Shown one piece after another: positions 1-13,678 of a DNA stretch of 64,000 bases; positions within the stretch are counted from its first letter, which is position 1, and each line of letters starts with the position of its first letter. The notes beneath the pieces were generated by a model. The model did not search any database. It was not told the origin of the DNA and saw only the letters and a list, made by a program, of their open reading frames with translations. The position numbers were made by a program, and so were the translations under genes. The DNA comes from Akkermansiaceae bacterium (GTDB lineage: Bacteria; Verrucomicrobiota; Verrucomicrobiia; Verrucomicrobiales; Akkermansiaceae), in the NCBI GenBank assembly GCA_028822935.1, contig JAPKCM010000024.1, positions 1 through 64,000 on the forward strand, read 5' to 3'.

Positions 1-151
1 ATGCAAGGCCTGAACCTAACATTCAAAGTGGTCCTGAAATGGTGACCTGATCACCGGGCTATCTGGGTGCTCGGAAATTGCTTAATTTGGCTTAACCTGT
101 AACAACTTGATGGGTATCAAATTCCCAGGAGTAGATCCACTTCGATCCAGC

Positions 152-1063
152 ATGTTCAATCGACACACCATCTCATCATGGCTGATCGCAGCCACGCTCG
201 CTTCCTTGCCTTTATGTTCTCATGGCGAAACCGAACCCAGTCACCACTTTGCGAAAAACGATGGGGTGAAGATCCATTACGTTTCAGCGGGAGATGAAAA
301 TCCCGGCGCTCCGGTGATCATGATCCACGGATTTCCTGATTACTGGTATACATGGCGCAAACAGATCGCTGCCCTCTCGAAGACTCGACACGTGTTGGCG
401 ATCGACCTGCGCGGCTTCAACAAGAGCGACAAACCGAAGGGCGTCGACAACTACGCGATACCCTTACTGGTCGAAGATGTCGCCGCGGTGCTGAAACAGA
501 CCGGGAAAAAGAAAGCGGTCATCTGCGGCCATGACTGGGGCGGGATGATCGCGTGGACCTTCGCGATGACTCATCCCGAACTGACCGAGAAGCTCATCGT
601 CCTGAACCTCCCCCACCCGCACGGACTCACGCGGGAACTGGCCACCAACCCACAGCAGCAAAAAAACTCGGCCTATGCCCGTGAGTTTCAAAAACCAGGA
701 GCGCACAAAAAACTCACGGCGAAAGGGCTCGCATCCTGGGTCACCGACGCTGCGGCCAAGGAAAAGTATCTTGAGGCATTCAAGCGCTCGGATTTTGAAG
801 CGATGCTGAACCTCTACAAGAAAAACTATCCGCGCCCACCTTACGAACTGCCAAAGGAAGCCCCCAAGGTAAAGGTCGTCTGCCCGGTCCTTTTGATCCA
901 CGGCCTCGACGACAACGCACTCCTTGCAGGAGCCCTCAACGATACCTGGAACTGGATCGAGAGCGATCTCACCCTGGTGACAATCCCTGGAGCCGGGCAC
1001 TTCGTCCAACAAGATGCCGCCGATCTCGTGACGCGGTCGATGGCCTCCTGGCTCAATCGCTGA
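152..1063 (+). CDS. Secreted alpha/beta hydrolase, epoxide-hydrolase/dehalogenase-like
   Basis: This is a 303-residue alpha/beta-hydrolase-fold enzyme that probably acts in the periplasm. An N-terminal signal peptide is visible at about residues 1-25 (basic MFNRH, hydrophobic core, CSHG). The oxyanion motif HGFP is at 59-62. The nucleophile elbow GHDWGG at 126-131 carries Asp128 rather than Ser, which is typical of epoxide hydrolases and haloalkane dehalogenases. A likely acid is Asp253 or Asp254 and the catalytic His is His283 (GAGHF). An upstream TTG at 107 would add 15 residues ahead of the signal peptide, so the ATG at 152 is preferred. The substrate cannot be told from sequence. It stands alone, and its downstream neighbours are on the other strand. 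Confidence 0.85.
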
Positions 1064-1187: not shown

Positions 1188-1325
1188 TCAGTTTCCCAAA
1201 GTGCTGCTTGCCCGAACCTTTAAAGCCCAATGTTCCTTGCCGTTTTCGTCAAGCAAGTCCGCGATGGCTGCGGGATCAGCCTTTGCCAAGGCGATGAGTC
1301 CGTCACGGGTCGGTCGTTGCACCAT
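1188..1325 (-). pseudogene. Possible remnant of an IS66-type transposase N-terminus
   Basis: A 45-codon open frame starts with about 24 residues (TRDGLIALAKADPAAIADL region) that resemble the opening of IS66-family transposases, which begin with a helix of this kind before their coiled coil. The next 20 codons do not continue the family and a stop follows. No inverted repeats or IS66 accessory genes are visible, so at most this is a fossil. The similarity is from memory and not from a search. Confidence 0.3.
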
Positions 1326-1458: not shown

Positions 1459-2118
1459 TTACTCCGGCTCGGTCACGGTATTCATCTCCAGGGCCACCGC
1501 AGTTTGCGCGAACAGGCGGCCATTAATGGATATCCTAGTCTGTATGGTGATCGAGGTCTTAGCGAGGAGGTTCTCTTCAAAGTGGGCGGTCGTTCCAATC
1601 GTGTTAGCGCCGGCGACCTGCCAGAAGATATTCTTGGCCTGGGCGCCTCCTGCGAGATGAATCGCGACACCGTTACCCACCGTGAAAGTCCCCGCGATCT
1701 CGAGGATCCAAACATCATTCGAGCAACCCGAGAACGTGACGTCCGTAGGCACGGTCACGCCGGAGCTCCATTTATAGATGCTAGGGGTGAGCGTCATTCC
1801 GCTGATATCTCCGGCAGCCAGCTCAATGAAATCGGGGTTTGGGCGTCCGGCGGCCTCGGTGTAAGCGGCTTCCATGTCGAGGACAGCCGAGCCGAGCTTG
1901 ACAGGACCAGTAATAATTCCAGCAGGGCCAGCAGCATCGACTGAGTAGATATTTCCAGTCACTTGGGGTTGCGTTATCGCAGTCATAGCGGCACCCGCGA
2001 TGGGGCTCTTCCCGATGTCTCCCGTAGTTGCTGAACTAGGAACATTGGTAATTCCTGATTTTAATAGAATTACAAGACCCCCGGCCGACCCGAGGTTGAC
2101 CAGCGCTGGTCCTGCTCG
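1459..2118 (-). pseudogene. DUF3494 ice-binding-protein-like domain without a start codon or signal
   Basis: The open frame encodes about 219 residues that match the whole DUF3494 (PF11999) ice-binding fold. It starts with ALVNLGSAGGLVILLKSGI and continues through TTGDIG, a GDISGMTLTPSIYKW-like segment, GGAQAKNIFWQVAG and a closing INGRLFAQTAV. The first ATG, at 1986, would remove about 44 residues of the domain. Upstream there is only a possible CTG at 2103, preceded by AGCAGGA, and then an in-frame TAA at 2119-2121. No signal peptide is present, although family members are normally exported. The frame begins 6 bases after the PilX-like stop and points the same way. It may have been the C-terminal part of a pilin-like fusion, be translated from CTG by coupling, or be a 5'-truncated pseudogene. 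The domain call is firm; the gene model is not. Confidence 0.7.
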
Positions 2119-2123
2119 TTACT

Positions 2124-2510
2124 TTACGGGCTCAATGGCATCGGAACGCGAGCCCGCGCCTCCTGCGCTGTCCCGGCATCCACGATGGCCGTCGCCCAGA
2201 AGGTGTCGACGATCCGAATAACCTCAATCTCTTCTCCGCCTTGGAGGCTTAAAGTGTGTTGATATCCGTCGAGCCACCCTTCGCTGCCGTGGATGTGCTG
2301 GGCATAGCGTAATCCTGATTCGGCCAGATAGTAGGCTCGGGATCCTGCATTAAAGCTGAGGGAGCTGTGGTCCGAACTCTGGGTCAACGAGATCACTGAT
2401 ACCCCCAAAACGGCCATGATTAGCATCACTGCGATCACGCTGAGCAAGACCGCGCCCTTCCGAAGGGAATTGACGGGGCGGATTGGAGTCGCTTTTTGGG
2501 GAGTCATCAT
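2124..2510 (-). CDS. PilX-like minor pilin/assembly protein
   Basis: The product is about 128 residues. It has a basic N-terminus (LRKG) and then a single hydrophobic helix (AVLLSVIAVMLIMAVLGVSVI, about 20-41), as in PilX/PilX_N proteins that start RGAVLL. The conserved stretch AYYLAESGLRYAQ, typical of PilX-type proteins, follows. The canonical GFTLIE prepilin site is absent. The open frame reaches up to 2567, but ATG codons at 2510 and 2507 give a normal short leader. It lies after three pseudopilin genes and just before the ice-binding-like frame, so it is probably a minor component of the same pilus. Confidence 0.7.
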   Translation of the reverse strand: MMTPQKATPIRPVNSLRKGAVLLSVIAVMLIMAVLGVSVISLTQSSDHSSLSFNAGSRAYYLAESGLRYAQHIHGSEGWLDGYQHTLSLQGGEEIEVIRIVDTFWATAIVDAGTAQEARARVPMPLSP

Positions 2511-2626
2511 CTGGTTCTTCGGTTGGGGGGGGGACTTAATAGACACGACCGCCACTTCGGGTCGCAAAACAGCTCACCTCAATTCCCATCCTCGATTGGG
2601 CTGAGCGGGGTAACGCTTGCTCTTCC

Positions 2627-3091
2627 TTACTGATCATAGCGGGGATGGATCATCGTGGTGTTTGAGACTCCATCACTGCGCGTAGATCGTAAGGTGATGG
2701 TGATGGTGTCGGCTGTGGAGGAGACCGCAAAAACGCTGACATTATCCAACAGCGCGGCACCCTGCAAAGTCAGGCTGGAGCCGGAGGTGCCATTCCAGGT
2801 AGCGGTCTCCGCTTCGCCAAGCCGATCGGGATGGCTAGAGGTCCACTGAACAGTCCGACCATCGGTGACCCCCACGGTGCCAGCGTCCGCGAAGGTCAGT
2901 TCCTTGACTAAACGATTCATGGCGACCTGGATTTTCTGGGAGTCCTCGGCAGCGTCCTTATTGCTGATGAAGACCTTAGTGGACGTCACAAGCAACATGG
3001 CGGTAAATACGAGTGCAATCCCGCTCAGGGCCAGGACCGCGATAACCTCGATAAGGGTAAAGCCGGCCCGATTCTGGCAATGGGTCTTCAT
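2627..3091 (-). CDS. Type II/IV pseudopilin (PilW/MshO-like)
   Basis: A 154-residue prepilin-like protein. The cleavage site is G10/F11 in RAGFTLIEV, with Glu at mature position 5, followed by the usual hydrophobic helix. The C-terminal region is a variable globular domain. The ATG at 3091 was chosen because it gives a 10-residue leader and sits 4 bases after the preceding stop; a longer in-frame extension upstream overlaps the previous gene. Position and size suggest a minor pilin of the PilW/MshO class, but the exact class is inferred from order rather than sequence. Confidence 0.75.
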   Translation of the reverse strand: MKTHCQNRAGFTLIEVIAVLALSGIALVFTAMLLVTSTKVFISNKDAAEDSQKIQVAMNRLVKELTFADAGTVGVTDGRTVQWTSSHPDRLGEAETATWNGTSGSSLTLQGAALLDNVSVFAVSSTADTITITLRSTRSDGVSNTTMIHPRYDQ

Positions 3092-3095
3092 GACA

Positions 3096-3536
3096 TTACG
3101 GAATAGGGAAAAAATAGGTGGTGAGACGTTCACCCTGGCTGTTGCCCAAGGTGACCCGCAGGATGTTTTCAGTTCCCGGAGGGGGGATGGATTCGGCCCC
3201 ATTGACATCGAAATCGACCCAGCTTTTGTCGAGAAGGAGATAAGTCGGAGGATCAGCGGCAGCGGCAGTGTCGATCGCGGCGGATAAGGCAGGCAGGTCG
3301 TTGGGGTAAACGGTGCGGTAAAGATGCCACACCGCATCCATTTCCGTCCGCAGATTATTGGTTTCCGGCATGCGCAACAACGCGCTTCTGCTCCCTTGCA
3401 GGCCGGAAGCGATCAGAGGCAGCAAAAAGGCCATCAAAACCGCCGATAGCGAAAGAGTGGCGATTACCTCGATGAGGGTAAAGCCGCTCGGGCTGCGAAA
3501 GAGCGCTGGCCGAGATTTGTGAGACCTCGACTTCAT
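3096..3536 (-). CDS. Type II/IV pseudopilin
   Basis: A 146-residue pseudopilin with a leader ending in PSG and the mature start FTLIEVIATL (cleavage G18/F19). The hydrophobic helix runs to about residue 45. The ATG overlaps the upstream gene's stop as ATGA (3533-3536), which strongly supports this start and translational coupling. The globular part contains an ENILRVTLGN strand pattern but no assignable domain. It is likely a minor pilin that primes or decorates the fibre (MshO/PulJ-type position). Confidence 0.75.
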   Translation of the reverse strand: MKSRSHKSRPALFRSPSGFTLIEVIATLSLSAVLMAFLLPLIASGLQGSRSALLRMPETNNLRTEMDAVWHLYRTVYPNDLPALSAAIDTAAAADPPTYLLLDKSWVDFDVNGAESIPPPGTENILRVTLGNSQGERLTTYFFPIP

Positions 3537-4054
3537 TGGATTAATCCGGTTCCCGCTAGAATGGTGATGCTCTGGTTTCGTGCTCCGCCGGTCAGGATGA
3601 TCGTTTGATCTGCGCCAAGGAGAGCTCCCGCATCGCTCAAGGGCCTTCCCCATGAATCAAAACGAATGACGGTCCCTGAGGGCGTCGTTACACCCTCGGT
3701 CAGGGTGCCTTCCATCGCGCCGGTGCCGGGAATGATTCCCGGCGTGAAGCCAGCGCCGGGAATGACCACGGGACCGATCTGGTAAGTTGTGGTGTCGGTG
3801 AAGACCAAGCGCCACTGATAGGTATCGGCTTGAGCCCGGATCTGGGCGTAGCGCAAATGGGAACTCAGTCGATCGGCTTCCGTCGCCAAAGTGACATTGG
3901 AGCCAGGTAAAACGCTCACAACTCCCCCGCCCAAAATCCCGAGCAGAACCAAAGTGGCCACGGCTTCGACCAAGGTAAAGCCACTGCGGAACCGCGCGGG
4001 AGACTGCTTGAGATGAGTCACTTTTGGGGGGATCTCTTTGGAGCTATGTTCCAA
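3533..4054 (-). CDS. Type II/IV pseudopilin (GspH/MshC-like)
   Basis: A 173-residue prepilin with leader cleavage at G25/F26 (SGFTLVEAV) and a hydrophobic segment LVLLGILGGGVVSVL. The region after the helix (ATEADRLSSHLRYAQIRAQ) resembles GspH/FimT/MshC pseudopilins, where this helix is followed by beta strands. The stop overlaps the next gene by four bases. The major pilin gene lies 65 bases upstream. A role as minor pilin is inferred. Confidence 0.75.
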   Translation of the reverse strand: MEHSSKEIPPKVTHLKQSPARFRSGFTLVEAVATLVLLGILGGGVVSVLPGSNVTLATEADRLSSHLRYAQIRAQADTYQWRLVFTDTTTYQIGPVVIPGAGFTPGIIPGTGAMEGTLTEGVTTPSGTVIRFDSWGRPLSDAGALLGADQTIILTGGARNQSITILAGTGLIQ

Positions 4055-4119: not shown

Positions 4120-4548
4120 CTATCTCGCCCAGGTCGCTGGCGCAGTTGAGGTCGATACTGTTCGCGTCAGAGAGAGCGCATTAGGGCTGGGATAATCTTG
4201 GAACGTCAAGGTTCCTGCTGTAGTATTACTAACAGTCAGAACGTAATCAGTCCCCGAACCCTGGTTAAGGTCACTGCCGACAGCAGTTTGGATCAAGGCC
4301 TCACTGGAGGCAGTGTAGCCAGCCGTCGCGAGCATCTGTTGGCCCCAAGCAAGAGCTTCGCGGCCGTTCAATTCGGCGATTCCCGCGTCAAGCGCTCGGT
4401 CCTTTGCGTTATCAGCCATGTCGATATACTTTGGCACTGCGATAGCAGCGAGGATGCCGAGCAGGACGAGGACGGCGATGACCTCGATCAAGGTGAAACC
4501 ACTTTTCCTTTTTTTTGCTTGGGTTGCTTGTCTTCTATTTATTTTCAT
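4120..4548 (-). CDS. Major type IV pilin (PilA/MshA-like)
   Basis: A 142-residue prepilin with a short basic leader (KINRRQATQAKKRKSG), cleavage at G17/F18, and the classical N-terminal helix FTLIEVIAVLVLLGILAAIAVPKY. Glu at mature position 5 and the Pro kink are both present. The rest is a small globular domain without a Cys pair. It follows the retraction ATPase gene after a 500-base AT-rich gap, so it probably has its own promoter and is the structural subunit, as expected for the most abundant pilin of the operon. Confidence 0.85.
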   Translation of the reverse strand: MKINRRQATQAKKRKSGFTLIEVIAVLVLLGILAAIAVPKYIDMADNAKDRALDAGIAELNGREALAWGQQMLATAGYTASSEALIQTAVGSDLNQGSGTDYVLTVSNTTAGTLTFQDYPSPNALSLTRTVSTSTAPATWAR

Positions 4549-5046: not shown

Positions 5047-6192
5047 TCAACTTAGCTCGTCGTACTCCTCCGTGTCTTGGAGCTTAGCGAGAGCAAGACC
5101 AGGAACCGTGTAGGAAAAGGTCCGGCTCGCGAGGTAATCCTGCAGCATGGTTGGACGGTTGGCGACGCCCTCGGCGTCTTCCAAGGTAATGAGGTTCTGT
5201 CGGACTTTGGCGGCGAGGGAGAGCTCGAGGGGACACATCCCAGCCTGAAGGCCTCCGGTGAGCGAATTGTAAAGTTGGTGCGTATTGCCTTCCCGGATCA
5301 TTGTCCGCACGGCGGGGGTCGCTAGCAGGATCTCGCGGGCCGCGATCCGACCGCTTCCGGATGCACGAGGGAGCAATACCTGGGTGACGATGCCTTGGAG
5401 AACTGACGCCAGTTGGGCGCGCACCAAGGCCTGCTGAGCCGGGGGGAAAACGTCGATAATGCGGTCGACCGTCTGTGAGGTGTCGCTCGTGTGCAAGGTG
5501 GAAAAGACGAGATGCCCTGTCTCGCTAGCGGTCAGGGCGAGCTGGATGGTCTCGAGGTCCCGCATTTCACCCACGAGGATGACGTCTGGGTCTTCGCGGA
5601 GAGCTGACTTGAGCGCGGGCCCGAAACCGTGCGTGTGAATGCCCAGTTCACGCTGGGTGATGCAGGCCTGCTTTTCCGTATAAGTATATTCGATCGGATC
5701 CTCTACCGTCAGGATATGCTTCGGGCTACGATTGTTGATTAGGTCGACCAAGCAAGCAAGCGTCGTCGATTTTCCAGTCCCGGTCGCCCCGGTGAAGAGG
5801 ACCAAACCGCGTGGGATCTTGGAGAACTTGAAAATCGATTCCTCCATGGTGAGCTCCTCGGGGGAAGGAATGGTGTCGGGAATAAGGCGGAAAACAGCGG
5901 CGAGCCCCCGTTGCTGCCGGTGGATGTTGATGCGGAAACGTGTGAGCCCCTGGGGCAGATCGAGCGCGTAGCTGATATCGATCTCGAGGGCTTGATTGAG
6001 CACCTCGATCTGATTCGGGCTCAGCATGCCGAGTATGGTAGCCTCGCACTCCTCGGCACTGAGTGGCGGATATTCTTCGCGCAGGGGGAGCAGTGCACCG
6101 TCGATTCGAAATGCGGGGCTTCGATCAGGGGCCAAGTGTACGTCCGAGGCTCGTCGCGTCACAGCGAGGCCCATCAGGTTAGGCAAATTCAT
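5047..6192 (-). CDS. pilT: Type IV pilus retraction ATPase PilT
   Basis: A 381-residue hexameric secretion/twitching ATPase that powers pilus retraction from the cytoplasmic side. Visible features are the N-terminal PAS-like region with ASDVHLAP, Walker A GATGTGKST (135-143), the Asp box, Walker B DPDVILVGEMRD (201-212), and the His box GHLVFSTLHT (226-235). An AVRTMIREG stretch corresponds to the PilT AIRNLIRE motif. It lacks the Zn Cys motif and N-terminal MshEN domain of the PilB-type ATPase in the same operon. It lies 28 bases after pilC. PilU is the alternative; the AIRNLIRE-like motif favours PilT. Confidence 0.88.
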   Translation of the reverse strand: MNLPNLMGLAVTRRASDVHLAPDRSPAFRIDGALLPLREEYPPLSAEECEATILGMLSPNQIEVLNQALEIDISYALDLPQGLTRFRINIHRQQRGLAAVFRLIPDTIPSPEELTMEESIFKFSKIPRGLVLFTGATGTGKSTTLACLVDLINNRSPKHILTVEDPIEYTYTEKQACITQRELGIHTHGFGPALKSALREDPDVILVGEMRDLETIQLALTASETGHLVFSTLHTSDTSQTVDRIIDVFPPAQQALVRAQLASVLQGIVTQVLLPRASGSGRIAAREILLATPAVRTMIREGNTHQLYNSLTGGLQAGMCPLELSLAAKVRQNLITLEDAEGVANRPTMLQDYLASRTFSYTVPGLALAKLQDTEEYDELS

Positions 6193-6220: not shown

Positions 6221-7447
6221 TTATTTTTTACCCGTCATCTGGGTCAGTTCCCACATCGGCATGTAAATGGCCAAAGCGAAGAAACCGACGACGACGGTGA
6301 GGGAAATGATCAGTAAGGGTCCGATGGCATCCGTCATCTTCTTGATGGTGTAACTGATCTCCACGTCGTAATGCTCGGAGACATGTCGAAGCATCTCGTC
6401 GAGGCGACCAGATTCCTCGCCAATCTTGACCATATTGACCAACATGGGGGGAAAGTAACTGGACGAGCTGAGTGGACCGGCAATGCCGTGGCCTTCTTCC
6501 AGCAACTCACGGACCTTGACAAATTCGGCGGAGATGGCGGCATTGCCGACGGTCTCCGTCAGGATTCGCAGCGAGTCGAGAACAAGAACACCGCTCGACT
6601 GAAGGATCGCAAAAATGCTGGCAAAACGGGACATCGCCGCCTTGACCAAGACAGGCCCGATCAGCGGTATGGCCAGTAGACTACGATCGCGGATCAAGCG
6701 TCCGGGATCCGTCCGGTTAAAGTAGCGATGAAACAGCAGGCCGCTAACGATCGTTCCGAGAGCGATCCATATCCCGTAGCCCGTGAGAATTTCACTCATC
6801 GTGATACACATGCGTGTCGGCAGAGGCAAATCGAGTCCTTGTTTATCGAAGAAGGAAACAAATCGAGGGATAACGAAGCCGACCATGACGAGGAAAGCGA
6901 CCCCGAGAACGCCGACGACGATGAACGGATAGCGCATCGCGGTTTTGATTTCAGCCTTAACTTGAGCCTCGTGCTCGATCAGGTAGAGCAGTCGATCGAG
7001 AACTTCCGGAAGCGTCCCGCTCGCCTCCCCTGCCTCGATCATGCTGCAAAAAAGGGGCGAAAAAACTTTTGAGTGCCTTCCTGCTGCGGCTGAAAGGCTG
7101 GAACCGGCTTCGATATCGTCTCGGATGATACCTGCCAGCCGGCGGAGTCGAGGCTGCACCGTCTGATCCTTGAGGATCGCGAACGCTTGCGTCATCGGAA
7201 TACCGACACGCACCATGGTGACGAGTTGTTTGGTAAAGACGATCAGGTCCGAGGCCGGCACTGGCAAATAGTGAGTCTGTAAGCGAGAGAAGACGCTACC
7301 GGGACTGCTACCAACACGCACCAGATCGATTGGGACGAGATTCAAATCAATAATTTGGCCCATCGCATCATCGAGCGTGTCGGCAGTGAGCCTGCCCTTA
7401 TGCATTTCCCCAGTGTGATCGGATGCTTGGTAACTAAAAACAGCCAT
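6221..7447 (-). CDS. pilC: Type IV pilus/type II secretion inner-membrane platform protein PilC/GspF
   Basis: A 408-residue polytopic membrane protein with the two T2SF repeats (about 69-191 and 271-394). Each contains a G(E/I)xSGxLxEvL-like motif: GEASGTLPEVL at 139-149 and GEESGRLDEML at 343-353. Transmembrane segments lie at about 175-195, 223-240 and 377-397. In the family it is the platform that couples the ATPases to pilin assembly. It sits between the assembly ATPase and the retraction ATPase, the usual order in MSHA/T4P loci. Confidence 0.88.
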   Translation of the reverse strand: MAVFSYQASDHTGEMHKGRLTADTLDDAMGQIIDLNLVPIDLVRVGSSPGSVFSRLQTHYLPVPASDLIVFTKQLVTMVRVGIPMTQAFAILKDQTVQPRLRRLAGIIRDDIEAGSSLSAAAGRHSKVFSPLFCSMIEAGEASGTLPEVLDRLLYLIEHEAQVKAEIKTAMRYPFIVVGVLGVAFLVMVGFVIPRFVSFFDKQGLDLPLPTRMCITMSEILTGYGIWIALGTIVSGLLFHRYFNRTDPGRLIRDRSLLAIPLIGPVLVKAAMSRFASIFAILQSSGVLVLDSLRILTETVGNAAISAEFVKVRELLEEGHGIAGPLSSSSYFPPMLVNMVKIGEESGRLDEMLRHVSEHYDVEISYTIKKMTDAIGPLLIISLTVVVGFFALAIYMPMWELTQMTGKK

Positions 7448-7531: not shown

Positions 7532-9238
7532 TCATAAGACGACTTTCGCGGCCGCTTCTTCGAGGGTCGTTATCCCCTTTTGAACTTTCAGGGCAGCGTC
7601 CTCTCGCATTGAAGCGAAGTTGCCTTCCTCCCGGGCGGCCGCACGGAGATCACCTTCGCTGGCATTTCTTGCGATCAGTGATTGCAGGTTCTCGCTAATC
7701 GGGAGCACCTCGTAGATACCGACACGGCCACGATAACCGGTATGGCGACAACGGTGGCAACCCTGCGCCTTAAGGAAGCGAGATTCGGAATCGGGGCTCA
7801 GCCCCCAGAACTCCAAGGCCTTGGGGGGCGGTGACCAGGGCACCGCACAGCTCTCGCAGACCCGCCTTACGAGACGTTGTCCAATCACGCACGAGAGGAC
7901 TGAAGCGATGAGAAACGGTTCGATGCCCATGTCGATCAGACGGCCAATCGTGCCGATGGCATTATTGGTGTGGACGGTGCTGAGGACGAGATGGCCGGTC
8001 AGCGCCGCTTGAATGGCGATGGTAGCTGTCTCGGAGTCGCGGATCTCGCCGATCATCGCGATATCCGGATCCTGACGAAGCATGCTCCGCAGGCTACCGG
8101 CAAAGGTCATGCCCGCCCGGGTGTTGAGCTCGACCTGACGGATGCGGGGAACCCGGTATTCGACAGGGTCCTCGACCGTGATGATATTCACCTCCGGGCG
8201 ATTGAGCATCGCGAGCACGGAATATAGCGTTGTGGTCTTGCCGCTCCCGGTCGGTCCCGTATTTAGGATCATGCCGTGTGGCCTTGCAATCGTCTTCTCG
8301 ATTTTGCGGACATCGCTTTCGCGCATGCCAAGCTGATCGAGTTTGAACACGAGAGCACTCATATCAAGGAGACGCATAACGATGTTCTCGCCGTGGATGG
8401 TGGGGAGCGATGATACCCGCACGTTGATTTCCCGACCGCTGATGCGGGCGGTGAAGCGGCCATCCTGAGGAACGCGGGTAATGGCAATATCCATGTGTCC
8501 GAGAATCTTCAAGCGGGAGACGACCGAGGGCAGCATCGACTTGGGGATCGGCGGCAGGTCCTTTAAGATTCCATCGACACGGAGCCGGACTTGGACATGA
8601 GTCTTCTCCGGGCAAACGTGCACGTCGCTCGCTCCTTCGCGAACGGCACGCGTGATAATCCAATCGACGCTGCGTACCGCGGTTGCTCCCTCCGCCATAG
8701 CGGTTAACGCCTTGAGTTGTGACTCATCGCTTTCGTTGCTCTCCCCGTCGGACTGCGTCGTGCCGTAATCGACCTTCTCGATATCGTCGAGCAGAGAACC
8801 GATCCCGGAGGCAAGACCATAGAGACTGTTCATTAGCTCGTTATACTCGGTCTCGGTACAGATGACGGGTTCGACCTCCATCTCGACGTGTCGCTGCACC
8901 GCATCCATGTCGACCACCTCTGTGGGGTCGGGCATTGCCACAATGAGCAAGTTTTCGTCTTGCCGCAGCGGAACGATGCGGTGTTTTCCGGCCATCGAAG
9001 CGGGCAAGATCGCGGCGAGTTCCGGATCCACAGGATAGCGATCAGGATCGTATTTGGGGATATTAAATCGAGCGCTAAGAATGCTGACCATGTCGGTATC
9101 GGCCACCATTCCTTCGCGAAGGATGTACTCATGGACCTTGAGACCGTTGGGTCTGGGGGCATTTTGCACCTGATTGTATTGCTCCTCAGAGAGGAAGCCT
9201 TCCTCAAGAAGCACTTTTTCAAGTCTCACATTCATCAT
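7532..9238 (-). CDS. pilB: Type IV pilus assembly ATPase (PilB/GspE/MshE-like)
   Basis: A 568-residue extension ATPase. The N-terminal third is an MshEN/T2SSE_N domain (two related stretches within 1-130), which binds c-di-GMP in some relatives. The ATPase core has ASDVHVCPE, Walker A GPTGSGKTT (328-336), an Asp box with DPDIAMIGEIRD (about 390-401) and the His box GHLVLSTVHT (415-424). The family's zinc site is present as CxxC pairs at 461-464 and 494-497. Two adjacent ATG codons precede the frame and either may be used. It lies 13 bases after the secretin gene and 84 bases before pilC. Confidence 0.88.
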   Translation of the reverse strand: MMNVRLEKVLLEEGFLSEEQYNQVQNAPRPNGLKVHEYILREGMVADTDMVSILSARFNIPKYDPDRYPVDPELAAILPASMAGKHRIVPLRQDENLLIVAMPDPTEVVDMDAVQRHVEMEVEPVICTETEYNELMNSLYGLASGIGSLLDDIEKVDYGTTQSDGESNESDESQLKALTAMAEGATAVRSVDWIITRAVREGASDVHVCPEKTHVQVRLRVDGILKDLPPIPKSMLPSVVSRLKILGHMDIAITRVPQDGRFTARISGREINVRVSSLPTIHGENIVMRLLDMSALVFKLDQLGMRESDVRKIEKTIARPHGMILNTGPTGSGKTTTLYSVLAMLNRPEVNIITVEDPVEYRVPRIRQVELNTRAGMTFAGSLRSMLRQDPDIAMIGEIRDSETATIAIQAALTGHLVLSTVHTNNAIGTIGRLIDMGIEPFLIASVLSCVIGQRLVRRVCESCAVPWSPPPKALEFWGLSPDSESRFLKAQGCHRCRHTGYRGRVGIYEVLPISENLQSLIARNASEGDLRAAAREEGNFASMREDAALKVQKGITTLEEAAAKVVL

Positions 9239-9251
9239 TTAGAGCCTTCGG

Positions 9252-10874
9252 TTACTTTCCTTGAAGCTCCACCGCTGTCCTAGCCTGGGGAAGAATGTGA
9301 GGGGTGATGAAAATCAAGGTATCGCTGAAAGTCTTCCGGCCGGCCTGGTTCCGGAACATCCCGCCCAAGCCTGGAATATTCTTGAGGAATGGAATCCCCT
9401 CCTCCTGGAGACTCTTGGATTCGGAAGAAAGTCCGCCGATCACCGTCGTTTGCCCGTTGGCGAGATACAGGGAGGTAATTGCTGACCGCGTGATAACCGG
9501 GACTTGAGCATTTCCATCAATGATAACGGCCCGGGTGTCATCGAAGTCGTCCTTGGTGGTATCGAGATTGAGCTTGACCCAATTCTTGTCGATGACGTGA
9601 GGAGTGACCTCCAGACGCAGGACCGCCTTTTTGAATTCGACCCGGGAAACAGCGGCGATTCCGCCTCCGGAAGCGGAAGCGAAGGGCCTCTCCTCGCCGC
9701 TTTCGATAATCGCAGTCAACTGGTCAAGGGTCGTGATCGAAGGTCGGGAGACGATGTTAAGCCGACCATCTTTTTGAAGGGCAGAGAGCTGAGCCTGCAG
9801 GGTTTGGCTCCCTCTGACAAGACTGGCACCGTAAGAAAATCCGGTTCCGATAGGATCAAACCCGGCGGGAAAGTTGGAATTGAAACCGGCGGTACCCGGC
9901 GTAATGCCTGTCGTAAGCTCTCCACTATTGGAGCCATCCAAGACGCCCCATTGGACGCCGAGCTGGCGAGCGACTTCAGTATTCGCCTGGACAATAGTCG
10001 CTTCGATCAGAACTTGATGAGTGGGTTGATCCAAGCCCTTAATGAGCTGACGAGCTTGGGCAATATCGGAGGGAACTCCATGGATGATAAGCTGGCCGGA
10101 ATCTGTGTCGGCCTTCACCATGAAACCGGTGCGTTCAACTTCCAGAGCGTCCGCGGGATCGGCACCTGAACCGGCACTTGAATCGTGATCTGCGGCGGTG
10201 GCCTGTACCGTTGAGCGGACTGAATTTGCAAGCTTTTCAATATCGGCATACCGGACGCGGACGATACCCATCACCATGGGCTCCGAACGCCTCCTCTGCT
10301 CAGCGGCTTGAAGCTGGTCGTGCAGCGCGGTCTCCATGGCAATATTGCCTTCGACATCTGCAACGGAGAAGATTTGCAGGAGGTCATCGTCAAGATTATA
10401 GTGTAATCCATGTGCTTCAGTAATGGCTAAAAAAAGGCGATCCCAGCGGGTTTCACGCCTGATGCTCACGAGAATCGGACCGCTGACGCCCTCGGTAATA
10501 ACGACGTTTAGATCGGCGGCGTCGGCGAGGGCACGCAGAAGCACTCTAACGTCCATGGCACGCGTCATTACCATGTTCTTAACAGGGATCTGGGGCAAGG
10601 GTTGCGGCCTCGATGATTCAAGGGCAGCCACCTCTTCTGCGTGGAAATCGCGCATCTCCGGAAAATCGGGGGCGGGTGGAGCAGCCCAAGCCGAGTCGTC
10701 TGCGACTTGCTTCCACTCTTTATAAGTAGGATCGTCACCCGCGGATTGCGTCGCGACGGTGCAGCCGGCCATTAACAGAGTGGCCGCAAGGACCACGCAA
10801 CGATTGCGAAAGTGTCCGCAGGACTTGGAACAATTGCGTTGTTTATCAGAGATGATTGTCATCGGTTTTATCAT
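9252..10874 (-). CDS. Secretin lipoprotein (PilQ/MshL/GspD-like)
   Basis: A 540-residue outer-membrane secretin forming the pore for the pilus. The N-terminus has a long basic leader and the lipobox LLMAGC (Cys38), so it is probably a lipoprotein like MshL; a start at the ATG at 10862 would give a shorter leader. An STN-like domain (about 105-170, ADLNVVITEGVSGPILV) follows. Then come a secretin N-type repeat (VRYADIEKLANSV...) and the secretin domain, starting at HQVLIEATIVQANTEVARQLG and ending with FITPHIL. It is short for PilQ and has no AMIN domain, which favours the MshL type. Confidence 0.85.
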   Translation of the reverse strand: MIKPMTIISDKQRNCSKSCGHFRNRCVVLAATLLMAGCTVATQSAGDDPTYKEWKQVADDSAWAAPPAPDFPEMRDFHAEEVAALESSRPQPLPQIPVKNMVMTRAMDVRVLLRALADAADLNVVITEGVSGPILVSIRRETRWDRLFLAITEAHGLHYNLDDDLLQIFSVADVEGNIAMETALHDQLQAAEQRRRSEPMVMGIVRVRYADIEKLANSVRSTVQATAADHDSSAGSGADPADALEVERTGFMVKADTDSGQLIIHGVPSDIAQARQLIKGLDQPTHQVLIEATIVQANTEVARQLGVQWGVLDGSNSGELTTGITPGTAGFNSNFPAGFDPIGTGFSYGASLVRGSQTLQAQLSALQKDGRLNIVSRPSITTLDQLTAIIESGEERPFASASGGGIAAVSRVEFKKAVLRLEVTPHVIDKNWVKLNLDTTKDDFDDTRAVIIDGNAQVPVITRSAITSLYLANGQTTVIGGLSSESKSLQEEGIPFLKNIPGLGGMFRNQAGRKTFSDTLIFITPHILPQARTAVELQGK

Positions 10875-11908: not shown

Positions 11909-13678
11909 TTATTTATTAGTAAAATCTCCTTCGCTCTCTTCGACGGTCTTCACTTTCAGGGTGAAGGTGAGGTGCAATTCATCCGAACTCTCGACGAGTT
12001 TTGTCGAATCTACCTCCACTGCATGGAATAGCTGCGACTGATCCAAGCGCGCAATGTAAATGGCTAGCGATGTTTCTAGTGAGGTGCGCTCTCCATTGAC
12101 GATTCCTTTTAAAAGGAGAGTTCCCTTGGCATCTGCTGCGGTTTTAATGGGGCGGCCCTTTGCGGCTGGAACATCCAGAAGCGTTATTGAACCGCCCATT
12201 GTAGCTGAGACATGGAGGAGCGATATATTTTCAGGGGTCAGCCTTGTGATCTCTGCGAGCAGGGCGAGACCCTCGTAGCGCTTTATGGCCGCCCTCCGTC
12301 GCTCTTGCAGCGCTCGCACGTCCCCGGTGGCTTCCATGATAATGGTCTCAGTAAGCCTGGGGCCTAGGGAACTTAGGCTCCGATCAAGATTGTCTCGCTC
12401 CGCGTTTAGGCTTCGCGATTGCGACTGTTGCCAGCTATATATAAGAGCTGTCGCTGCTGTCAGGATTATCAGAAAAATCGACATCACAGTGGCGATTTTA
12501 CGATGCTTGTTCTCGTCTAGGCGTTCCTTATAGGTGTAGGCGAGGTTAATTCCGGGCTGAGTTCCTTCGAGCGCCAAACCAAAAGCCGGTCCGTAGGCAA
12601 TTCGATCTACGTTGTCAGCAGGAAAGGACGTCTCCGTTTGTAACTCCGGCGTGTCAAAGGGATCGATCGCGATCACCTGGGGCGAAAGTTGCTCGGAAAT
12701 ATATTGAAAGAGGTGTCCTCTGGCAGCAATCCCGCCACCGAGAAAAATCGTTTCCATTGGCTCGGTATCGAAATTGCTTTGATAATACGTGATCGTCCGC
12801 TCGATCTGCCGCACCGTGCGTTTTAGAGTTGGATGTAATAACGCCAAAACATTTTCATGATATTGGCAATCATCGAATGAAAGTGCCTCTTCCCCCAACC
12901 CGAGTTTGAGAACGAGATCACAAGCTTCTTCCTGACTCGGCGCCGGGTTGAGTTCCTTCACAAGCACCTCCCCGAAGTTTTGGAGCCCCAATGGAATATT
13001 CCTGGTGAAGACAAGTCGCCCATCAGAGAGGACGCTCACGCTTGTGGCGCGCTGTCCCAACTTGCAGATCAAGACTGGAGCCTCCTGCTTCTCGTCGCCA
13101 CGGACGTTCACCAGATTACGCAGGGCAAAGAGAGGAACCCCAATGCCGGTCAGAGGATAACCCGCTCGAGAAAACGCTTGCTGAAGCCCTTCGGCACCCT
13201 CGCGTCCAACAAGCACACCGGTAATATTTAGGCTGGTATTTGATTCTCCTCCCTCCTCGACCTGAAAATCGATCACCGCGTCTTTTTCGAGGAATTCTTC
13301 TTCGCGTTGAAGCCCCCAGTATACAGCCCCCGGAAGTCGAGACGGGCTGACCTGCGGTAATTTTAGGTGATGAACGCGCGCCCAATCCAGCCCTGGCGCG
13401 GCCCAGATTGCCAGACCTTTGGATGAACCACAAAACTTCTGCAGTGCCGCCTTGAGTATCGGAGTAAACGAGGATGACTCTGGACCCAAGCCCGGGTCGA
13501 ATTCGAATGTCCGACATTCCTCGAAACATATCCCTCCATCGGCTGCCTTTCTCAATCGAACCATATAGATAGTGCTATATCCAATCTCAATACCCACGAT
13601 GGCCCCCTGACGCTTGGGACGTCTAAAGCTCCTCGATGAAACGCTTTTTGAAGTAGCGGGACGACTAGAATTAGTCAT
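11909..13678 (-). CDS. PilM-PilN fusion protein (GspL-like)
   Basis: A 589-residue protein joining two proteins that are usually separate. Residues about 25-375 form a PilM-type actin-like ATPase: GIEIGYSTIYMVRL is the phosphate-1-like strand, and FLGGGIAARGHL (about 312-323) and AYGPAFGLAL (about 361-370) are typical PilM/FtsA-fold ends. Residues 395-416 are a transmembrane helix, and about 417-589 form a coiled coil plus PilN-like periplasmic domain. This resembles GspL of type II secretion more than the pilM and pilN pair of Pseudomonas. It is the first gene of the operon, and about 760 bases separate it from the divergent dbpA. Confidence 0.78.
   Translation of the reverse strand: MTNSSRPATSKSVSSRSFRRPKRQGAIVGIEIGYSTIYMVRLRKAADGGICFEECRTFEFDPGLGPESSSFTPILKAALQKFCGSSKGLAIWAAPGLDWARVHHLKLPQVSPSRLPGAVYWGLQREEEFLEKDAVIDFQVEEGGESNTSLNITGVLVGREGAEGLQQAFSRAGYPLTGIGVPLFALRNLVNVRGDEKQEAPVLICKLGQRATSVSVLSDGRLVFTRNIPLGLQNFGEVLVKELNPAPSQEEACDLVLKLGLGEEALSFDDCQYHENVLALLHPTLKRTVRQIERTITYYQSNFDTEPMETIFLGGGIAARGHLFQYISEQLSPQVIAIDPFDTPELQTETSFPADNVDRIAYGPAFGLALEGTQPGINLAYTYKERLDENKHRKIATVMSIFLIILTAATALIYSWQQSQSRSLNAERDNLDRSLSSLGPRLTETIIMEATGDVRALQERRRAAIKRYEGLALLAEITRLTPENISLLHVSATMGGSITLLDVPAAKGRPIKTAADAKGTLLLKGIVNGERTSLETSLAIYIARLDQSQLFHAVEVDSTKLVESSDELHLTFTLKVKTVEESEGDFTNK

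Follow-up and report, generated by a model that had tools for sequence, protein, structure and literature searches.

Functional modules are widely grafted onto type IV pilins, and in modular pilins such as PilB and PilC of Streptococcus sanguinis a functional module is carried by a small pilin module (PMC8179133, available sections). The pilin ComZ of Thermus thermophilus (PDB 6qvi), proposed to sit at the filament tip, has a large beta-solenoid that is inserted inside the pilin fold, binds DNA, and was superposed in the same study on the ice-binding protein FfIBP (PMC6561018, available sections). An ice-gripping bacterial adhesin is also known, namely, MpAFP of Marinomonas primoryensis, which is a 1.5-MDa repeat adhesin and not a pilin (PMC4083281). 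In literature searches combining ice-binding or DUF3494 with pilin or pilus, one result set of which was partly covered, the comparison made for ComZ was the nearest thing to an ice-binding pilin among the papers listed.

The window analyzed here, a 64,000-nucleotide stretch of a draft Akkermansiaceae genome (contig JAPKCM010000024.1), contains a type IV pilus operon ending in a PilX/GspK-like pilin module, immediately followed by a frame encoding a DUF3494 domain. Seven orthologs of the pilin have the architecture of the S. sanguinis proteins, a functional module on a small pilin module, and in the window the second module is replaced. Unlike the modules of modular pilins, which share one open frame with the pilin, the halves in the window are divided by two stop codons, and the available sections of PMC8179133 name no ice-binding module. 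ComZ carries its solenoid within the pilin fold, whereas the domain in the window follows the pilin module and is read in a different frame. The secreted DUF3494 proteins FfIBP (4nu2) and its Colwellia counterpart (3wp9) share the whole domain with the window (58% and 52% identity, respectively; 1.0 Å); unlike them, the window domain has neither a signal peptide nor a usual start codon and is located at the end of a pilus operon.

The pilus operon and the frame behind its last pilin

The operon is encoded on the minus strand in the order PilM-like protein (11909–13678), PilQ-like secretin (9252–10874), PilB-like assembly ATPase (7532–9238), PilC/GspF-like inner membrane protein (6221–7447), PilT-family retraction ATPase (5047–6192; TIGR01420, 405.8 bits against a cut-off of 319.1), and four prepilins. 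The prepilins include a GspG/PilA-like protein, probably the major one (4120–4548), a GspH-like minor prepilin below the GspH cut-off (3533–4054), and two minor prepilins with N_methyl matches (3096–3575 and 2627–3091); the exact starts of the second and third are unsure. The last gene encodes the 128-aa pilin module (2124–2510, minus strand), which starts with an ATG at 2510 and ends in ARARVPMPLSP before a TAA at 2126–2124. The module matched no Pfam profile at E 0.001, its match to the NCBIfam GspK profile (E 0.015) is below the cut-off, and the ortholog L024 scored 21.3 bits against PilX_N (PF14341), for which the cut-off is 25.5. The initial annotation had called this protein PilX-like, a label that these profile matches leave weak. 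The module is orthologous to seven proteins encoded beside prepilins, and its single-sequence structural model, poor overall (pLDDT 50.9), has a helix at residues 14–46, as expected of a pilin.

On the other side of the DUF3494 frame, an alpha/beta hydrolase gene is encoded convergently (107–1063, plus strand). A dispersed repeat of about 210 bp (1052–1260), located between this gene and the DUF3494 frame and overlapping the hydrolase end, is 86% identical to the other of the two copies found in the genome (G000:C122:13632-13838, equivalent to L171:4633-4839). A short open stretch (1191–1325, minus strand), which we take to resemble the start of an IS66-type transposase, had no Pfam match, and this reading is unproven.

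The junction (2119–2126, minus strand) is a double stop, TAAAGTAA, which comprises the pilin-frame stop (2126–2124) and an in-frame TAA of the DUF3494 frame (2121–2119). The latter frame opens at 2118 and extends over 219 codons to 1459, with five bases, including the last part of its own stop, between it and the pilin TAA. The initial annotation had described a complete DUF3494 frame devoid of an ATG and a signal peptide just past a PilX-like stop, as well as an 8-base deletion that would join the two; the frame coordinates and the Pfam match bear out the former, and removal of bases 2126–2119 indeed places pilin and DUF3494 in one frame. Programmed one-base frameshifting was ruled out, as a stop is met in both frames within the 8 bases. 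The junction was also considered as the scar of an excised insertion; no duplicate was seen by eye, and this idea was left unproven. The DUF3494 frame has its first ATG at residue 45 (position 1986) and its first GTG at residue 53; upstream of residue 45, it contains only a CTG (residue 6, position 2103), a rare start codon, and ATT and ATC codons, with no ATG, GTG, or TTG. The signal peptide that is usual, if not obligatory, for the family is lacking, there being no common start codon before residue 45.

The DUF3494 domain is complete by profile, by sequence comparison with solved ice-binding proteins, and by predicted fold. It matches PF11999 over profile positions 1–208 of 208 with 195.5 bits (cut-off 28.7), and its AlphaFold model (pLDDT 85.5, pTM 0.86) is a beta-solenoid with a capping region and a long helix (Z 37.5 to FfIBP). 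The 4.59-Mb genome has no other match to PF11999. In L087, a secreted relative, homology extends to residue 1 of the window domain and a signal peptide, recognized by eye, lies directly upstream, which places the cut in the window near the start of the mature protein of secreted relatives. Among the best 80 of 363 relatives, the domain is preceded by a signal peptide, a lipoprotein signal, or a larger upstream part, where this could be judged by eye (L093 is cut by a contig end). The GC content (0.565) and third-position GC content (0.62) of the DUF3494 frame are similar to those of the operon. In the phylogenetic tree, the window protein forms a long branch (0.74, against a median end branch of 0.13) without a sister and falls outside a group of six Verrucomicrobiota rows, a placement that is unsure for a branch of this length. 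In other genomes of the order, DUF3494 constitutes the C-terminal part of large proteins (L138, from the same record as L048, and L139), as if the domain were mobile as a module.

The C-terminal module in orthologous pilins

We searched for the pilin module in 58 relatives, 288 genomes of the order, and 260 genomes of the family, sets that overlap and include the window genome. Strong matches were found in seven other genomes, four from the same genus (G021, G009, G018, and G024) and three from the same family (G155, G266, and G357), with 55% to 72% identity across the module. In the order set, 84 genomes had a match, 6 of them strong (the window genome included) and 78 weak (E 1e-6 to 1e-3); the weak matches, which look like more distant PilX-type proteins, were left out of the analysis. 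In six of the seven orthologs, a single open frame encodes the pilin module and an additional domain of about 410 aa behind it, yielding proteins of 535 to 549 aa from the start used (the G018 ortholog is listed as 560 aa when counted from a TTG). The seventh, G357, encodes the same C-terminal domain with a frame break inside. This extra part matches Bactofilin (PF04519) and DUF7305 (PF23981), partly below the cut-offs. The break in G357 (L181:1492-3115) sits beside TTATTATTAT, a triplet run that alone would not shift the frame, and is either an error or a real loss; a third piece of the beta-helix domain is located 25 kb away (G357:C5:314478-314624).

With the G021 beta-helix as the query, a counterpart was recovered in all six of the remaining orthologous genomes, with a best E value of at most 3e-79 in every case, and none was recovered in the window genome at E 0.1. 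At the DNA level, the nearest relative is G266, which is 78.8% identical over window positions 2126–2899, and the match stops at base 2126, that is, at the pilin stop. Where the window has PMPLSP followed by the stop, G155, G266, and G357 have PMPLSLCG. Conversely, none of the seven orthologous genomes yielded a match to the DUF3494 protein of the window at E 0.001, and two matches at chance level (E 0.04 and 0.1) were all that appeared, in a search with one protein as query, which a very distant DUF3494 could escape. A separate, signal-bearing DUF3494 gene at this position in relatives, which the initial annotation had named as the observation that would speak against a fusion, was accordingly not seen in the seven genomes within the reach of that one-protein search. 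The possibility that DUF3494 is a diverged version of the relatives' C-terminal domain was rejected by a profile comparison of the two, which gave a probability of 0.7%. Because pilin homology ends at the stop, the beta-helix is absent from the genome, DUF3494 starts at the same point, and the two domains are unrelated, the sequence comparison indicates that the C-terminal module is replaced by another at the module boundary. A search for sequence relatives of the orthologs at E 10 did not list ComZ, a result that leaves a relationship at the level of fold untouched.

The operon end in G266, which belongs to another genus of the family, is 79% identical to the window over 2126–2899, and that of the congeners is about 64% to 73% identical over most matched stretches; this closer similarity to a different genus hints at pilus operon exchange between genera.

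Five orthologs (G266, G155, G021, G357, and G024) have a cysteine at position 75 of the module together with one at the position of the stop codon in the window, and both are missing in G009, G018, and the window, the pair being co-present or co-absent in 8/8 sequences. This pattern suggests a disulphide that would close the pilin module at its boundary. The cysteine pair also speaks for the module replacement: because the window lacks both cysteines, the truncation did not result from a single local base error. A sequencing error in an intact pilin–DUF3494 gene would be in keeping with the draft state of the genome (156 contigs), the position of the locus within 2.6 kb of a contig end, and the likewise broken C-terminal frame of G357. 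Such an error is nonetheless improbable: no single indel of 1, 2, 4, or 5 bases joins the frames (2- or 5-base deletions and 1- or 4-base insertions, scanned along the stretch), and a real change fits both the loss of C75, which lies about 160 bases from the junction, and the substitutions at conserved residues described below.

State of the two halves

Conservation in the DUF3494 half was assessed in an alignment of 81 rows, picked for likeness to the window protein. In 63 columns, at least 95% of the rows other than the window share the conserved residue; the window protein is changed at 9 of these columns, the joint highest number, equaled by L107 (9) and followed by L098 and L101 (7 each). 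A straight-line fit on divergence, which is rough, predicts 3.7 changes against the 9 observed (z 4.1). Three of the changed positions are conserved glycines, and the window is the only one of the 81 rows in which more than one such glycine is changed. This excess looks like relaxed constraint, and since the branch is long and has no sister, a lack of close relatives may account for part of the changes.

In simulations without indels, an untranslated frame of this kind remained open with a probability of 0.44 at 0.05 changes per site and of 0.07 at 0.19, a value corresponding to half of the dS to G266 (0.37); with an assumed indel rate, the probability was much lower. The 219-codon frame is still open, and hence either the break is young or the cell continues to use the frame; if the frame is untranslated, its translation ceased fairly recently.

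As the alternative to a join, the initial annotation had offered a CTG start with a coupled AGCAGGA signal, giving a cytoplasmic protein that would be unexpected for the family. The DUF3494 frame would then be a second cistron, started at the CTG at 2103 by coupling to the pilin stop. The frame is open, the AGCAGGA is just upstream, and the available sections of PMC9957290 describe groups of environmental DUF3494 proteins in which a signal peptide is predicted for only about 37% to 53% of the proteins. However, of 27 long ATG frames in the window (picked mechanically, with starts that may be wrong), 1 has a Shine–Dalgarno core at this distance; random draws gave 4 in 27, and the frequency over all positions is 8.6%. 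Because such cores are not enriched before long frames, the AGCAGGA constitutes no special signal, and with a protein that is among the two most altered of the 81 at conserved residues, the proposal of a coupled start is weak and we regard it as very improbable.

The pilin half has dN/dS of 0.485 in comparison with G266, and the neighbouring pilin has 0.31 (90 codons). With G155 and G021 as outgroups, 13 amino acid changes were assigned to the window side and 8 to the G266 side. On these values, the pilin half is not clearly a pseudogene.

Origin of the junction and its meaning for the pilus

To look for fusions, we translated 123 DUF3494 loci and then 27 more, 9 of the latter being repeats, in six frames and scanned them with a pilin-module profile, which amounts to 141 loci; of these, L138 and L048 are the same record, some are overlapping pieces of one gene, and many span just 1.5 kb on each side. 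No PilX–DUF3494 fusion was found among the 141. The sole profile match, L146 (present again as L191; 13 bits), proved to be the signal-peptide end of an ordinary secreted ice-binding protein. The ice-binding tip or minor pilin envisaged in the initial annotation is thus partly sustained: DUF3494 stands where seven orthologs have their C-terminal module, but the expected fusion was not found, and for this reason the join of the two halves is one that we infer.

The shape of such a protein would have a parallel. Outside the ice-binding proteins, the structure nearest to the DUF3494 model in VIA-align 2, consulted as a second look, is ComZ (Z 14.3 over 199 residues, 8% identity), followed by bactofilin (Z 8.0); by the Foldseek E-value, the ComZ match is not significant (0.61, rank 43). 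Given this resemblance between the ComZ solenoid and the model, a DUF3494 module on a pilin is plausible in shape.

The arrangement could also have arisen by rearrangement alone, in which the beta-helix was lost through a deletion or an insertion and part of an ice-binding protein gene, without its signal peptide, came to lie behind the pilin module, the two never having formed one protein. Besides the lack of a fusion elsewhere, several features of the region accord with this scenario: the hydrolase has an 87% identical protein in the congener G020 in another neighbourhood, and the DNA homology ends at window position 1081; the dispersed repeat lies at 1052–1260; and the genes downstream of the pilin differ among the window, G266, and G155. 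Such an event would, however, have had to place both of its cuts almost exactly at module boundaries, to within a few codons, at the end of the pilin module and at the start of the mature ice-binding protein, which would be rare if cuts were random (about 10 in 540 times 10 in 250, a rough post hoc count and not a computed test), and the frame is intact over all 219 codons. We consider this origin somewhat unlikely.

We favour a modular tip minor pilin in which the C-terminal module was replaced and the resulting fusion was then broken, with a probability of about 0.5, because ComZ provides a precedent in shape and modules are widely grafted onto pilins. Against this former fusion stand the lack of a fused gene in any other genome checked, the double stop, which takes either several changes or a single event of 8 bases, the still open 219-codon frame, the pilin half that is not clearly decayed, the long branch and the equally altered L107, and the insignificant Foldseek match to ComZ.

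Under a former fusion, the ancestral gene would have encoded a PilX/GspK-like module and a bactofilin-like/DUF7305 beta-helix, as in the relatives, and replacement of the beta-helix would first have yielded an in-frame pilin–DUF3494 protein. Exported via the pilus machinery, the fused protein would have needed no signal peptide, and its ice-binding-type solenoid would have been displayed at the filament tip in a ComZ-like manner. The double stop would then have arisen by a small change at a later time. At present, the cell probably produces the 128-aa pilin module by itself, with little or no translation of the DUF3494 half, which would be a young pseudogene segment. The locus thus has the look of a domain swap that has since broken, and not of a functional pilus that grips ice.

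Its interest is accordingly that of a module swap, with ice binding by the pilus being putative only. Modular pilins are already known; here the replacement of the second module is directly visible, in that seven relatives have a beta-helix where the window genome, the eighth, has a solenoid of the ice-binding type. It is unlikely, if conceivable, that some Verrucomicrobiota type IV pili carried, and that sister strains may still carry, a true DUF3494 tip module on a retractable ice-gripping pilus. An intact fusion, if one exists, would be the first known ice-binding type IV pilus tip, as far as the literature was searched, and, if the ice-gripping tip is real, pilins of this family would be able to exchange their tip module as a whole, solenoid for solenoid.
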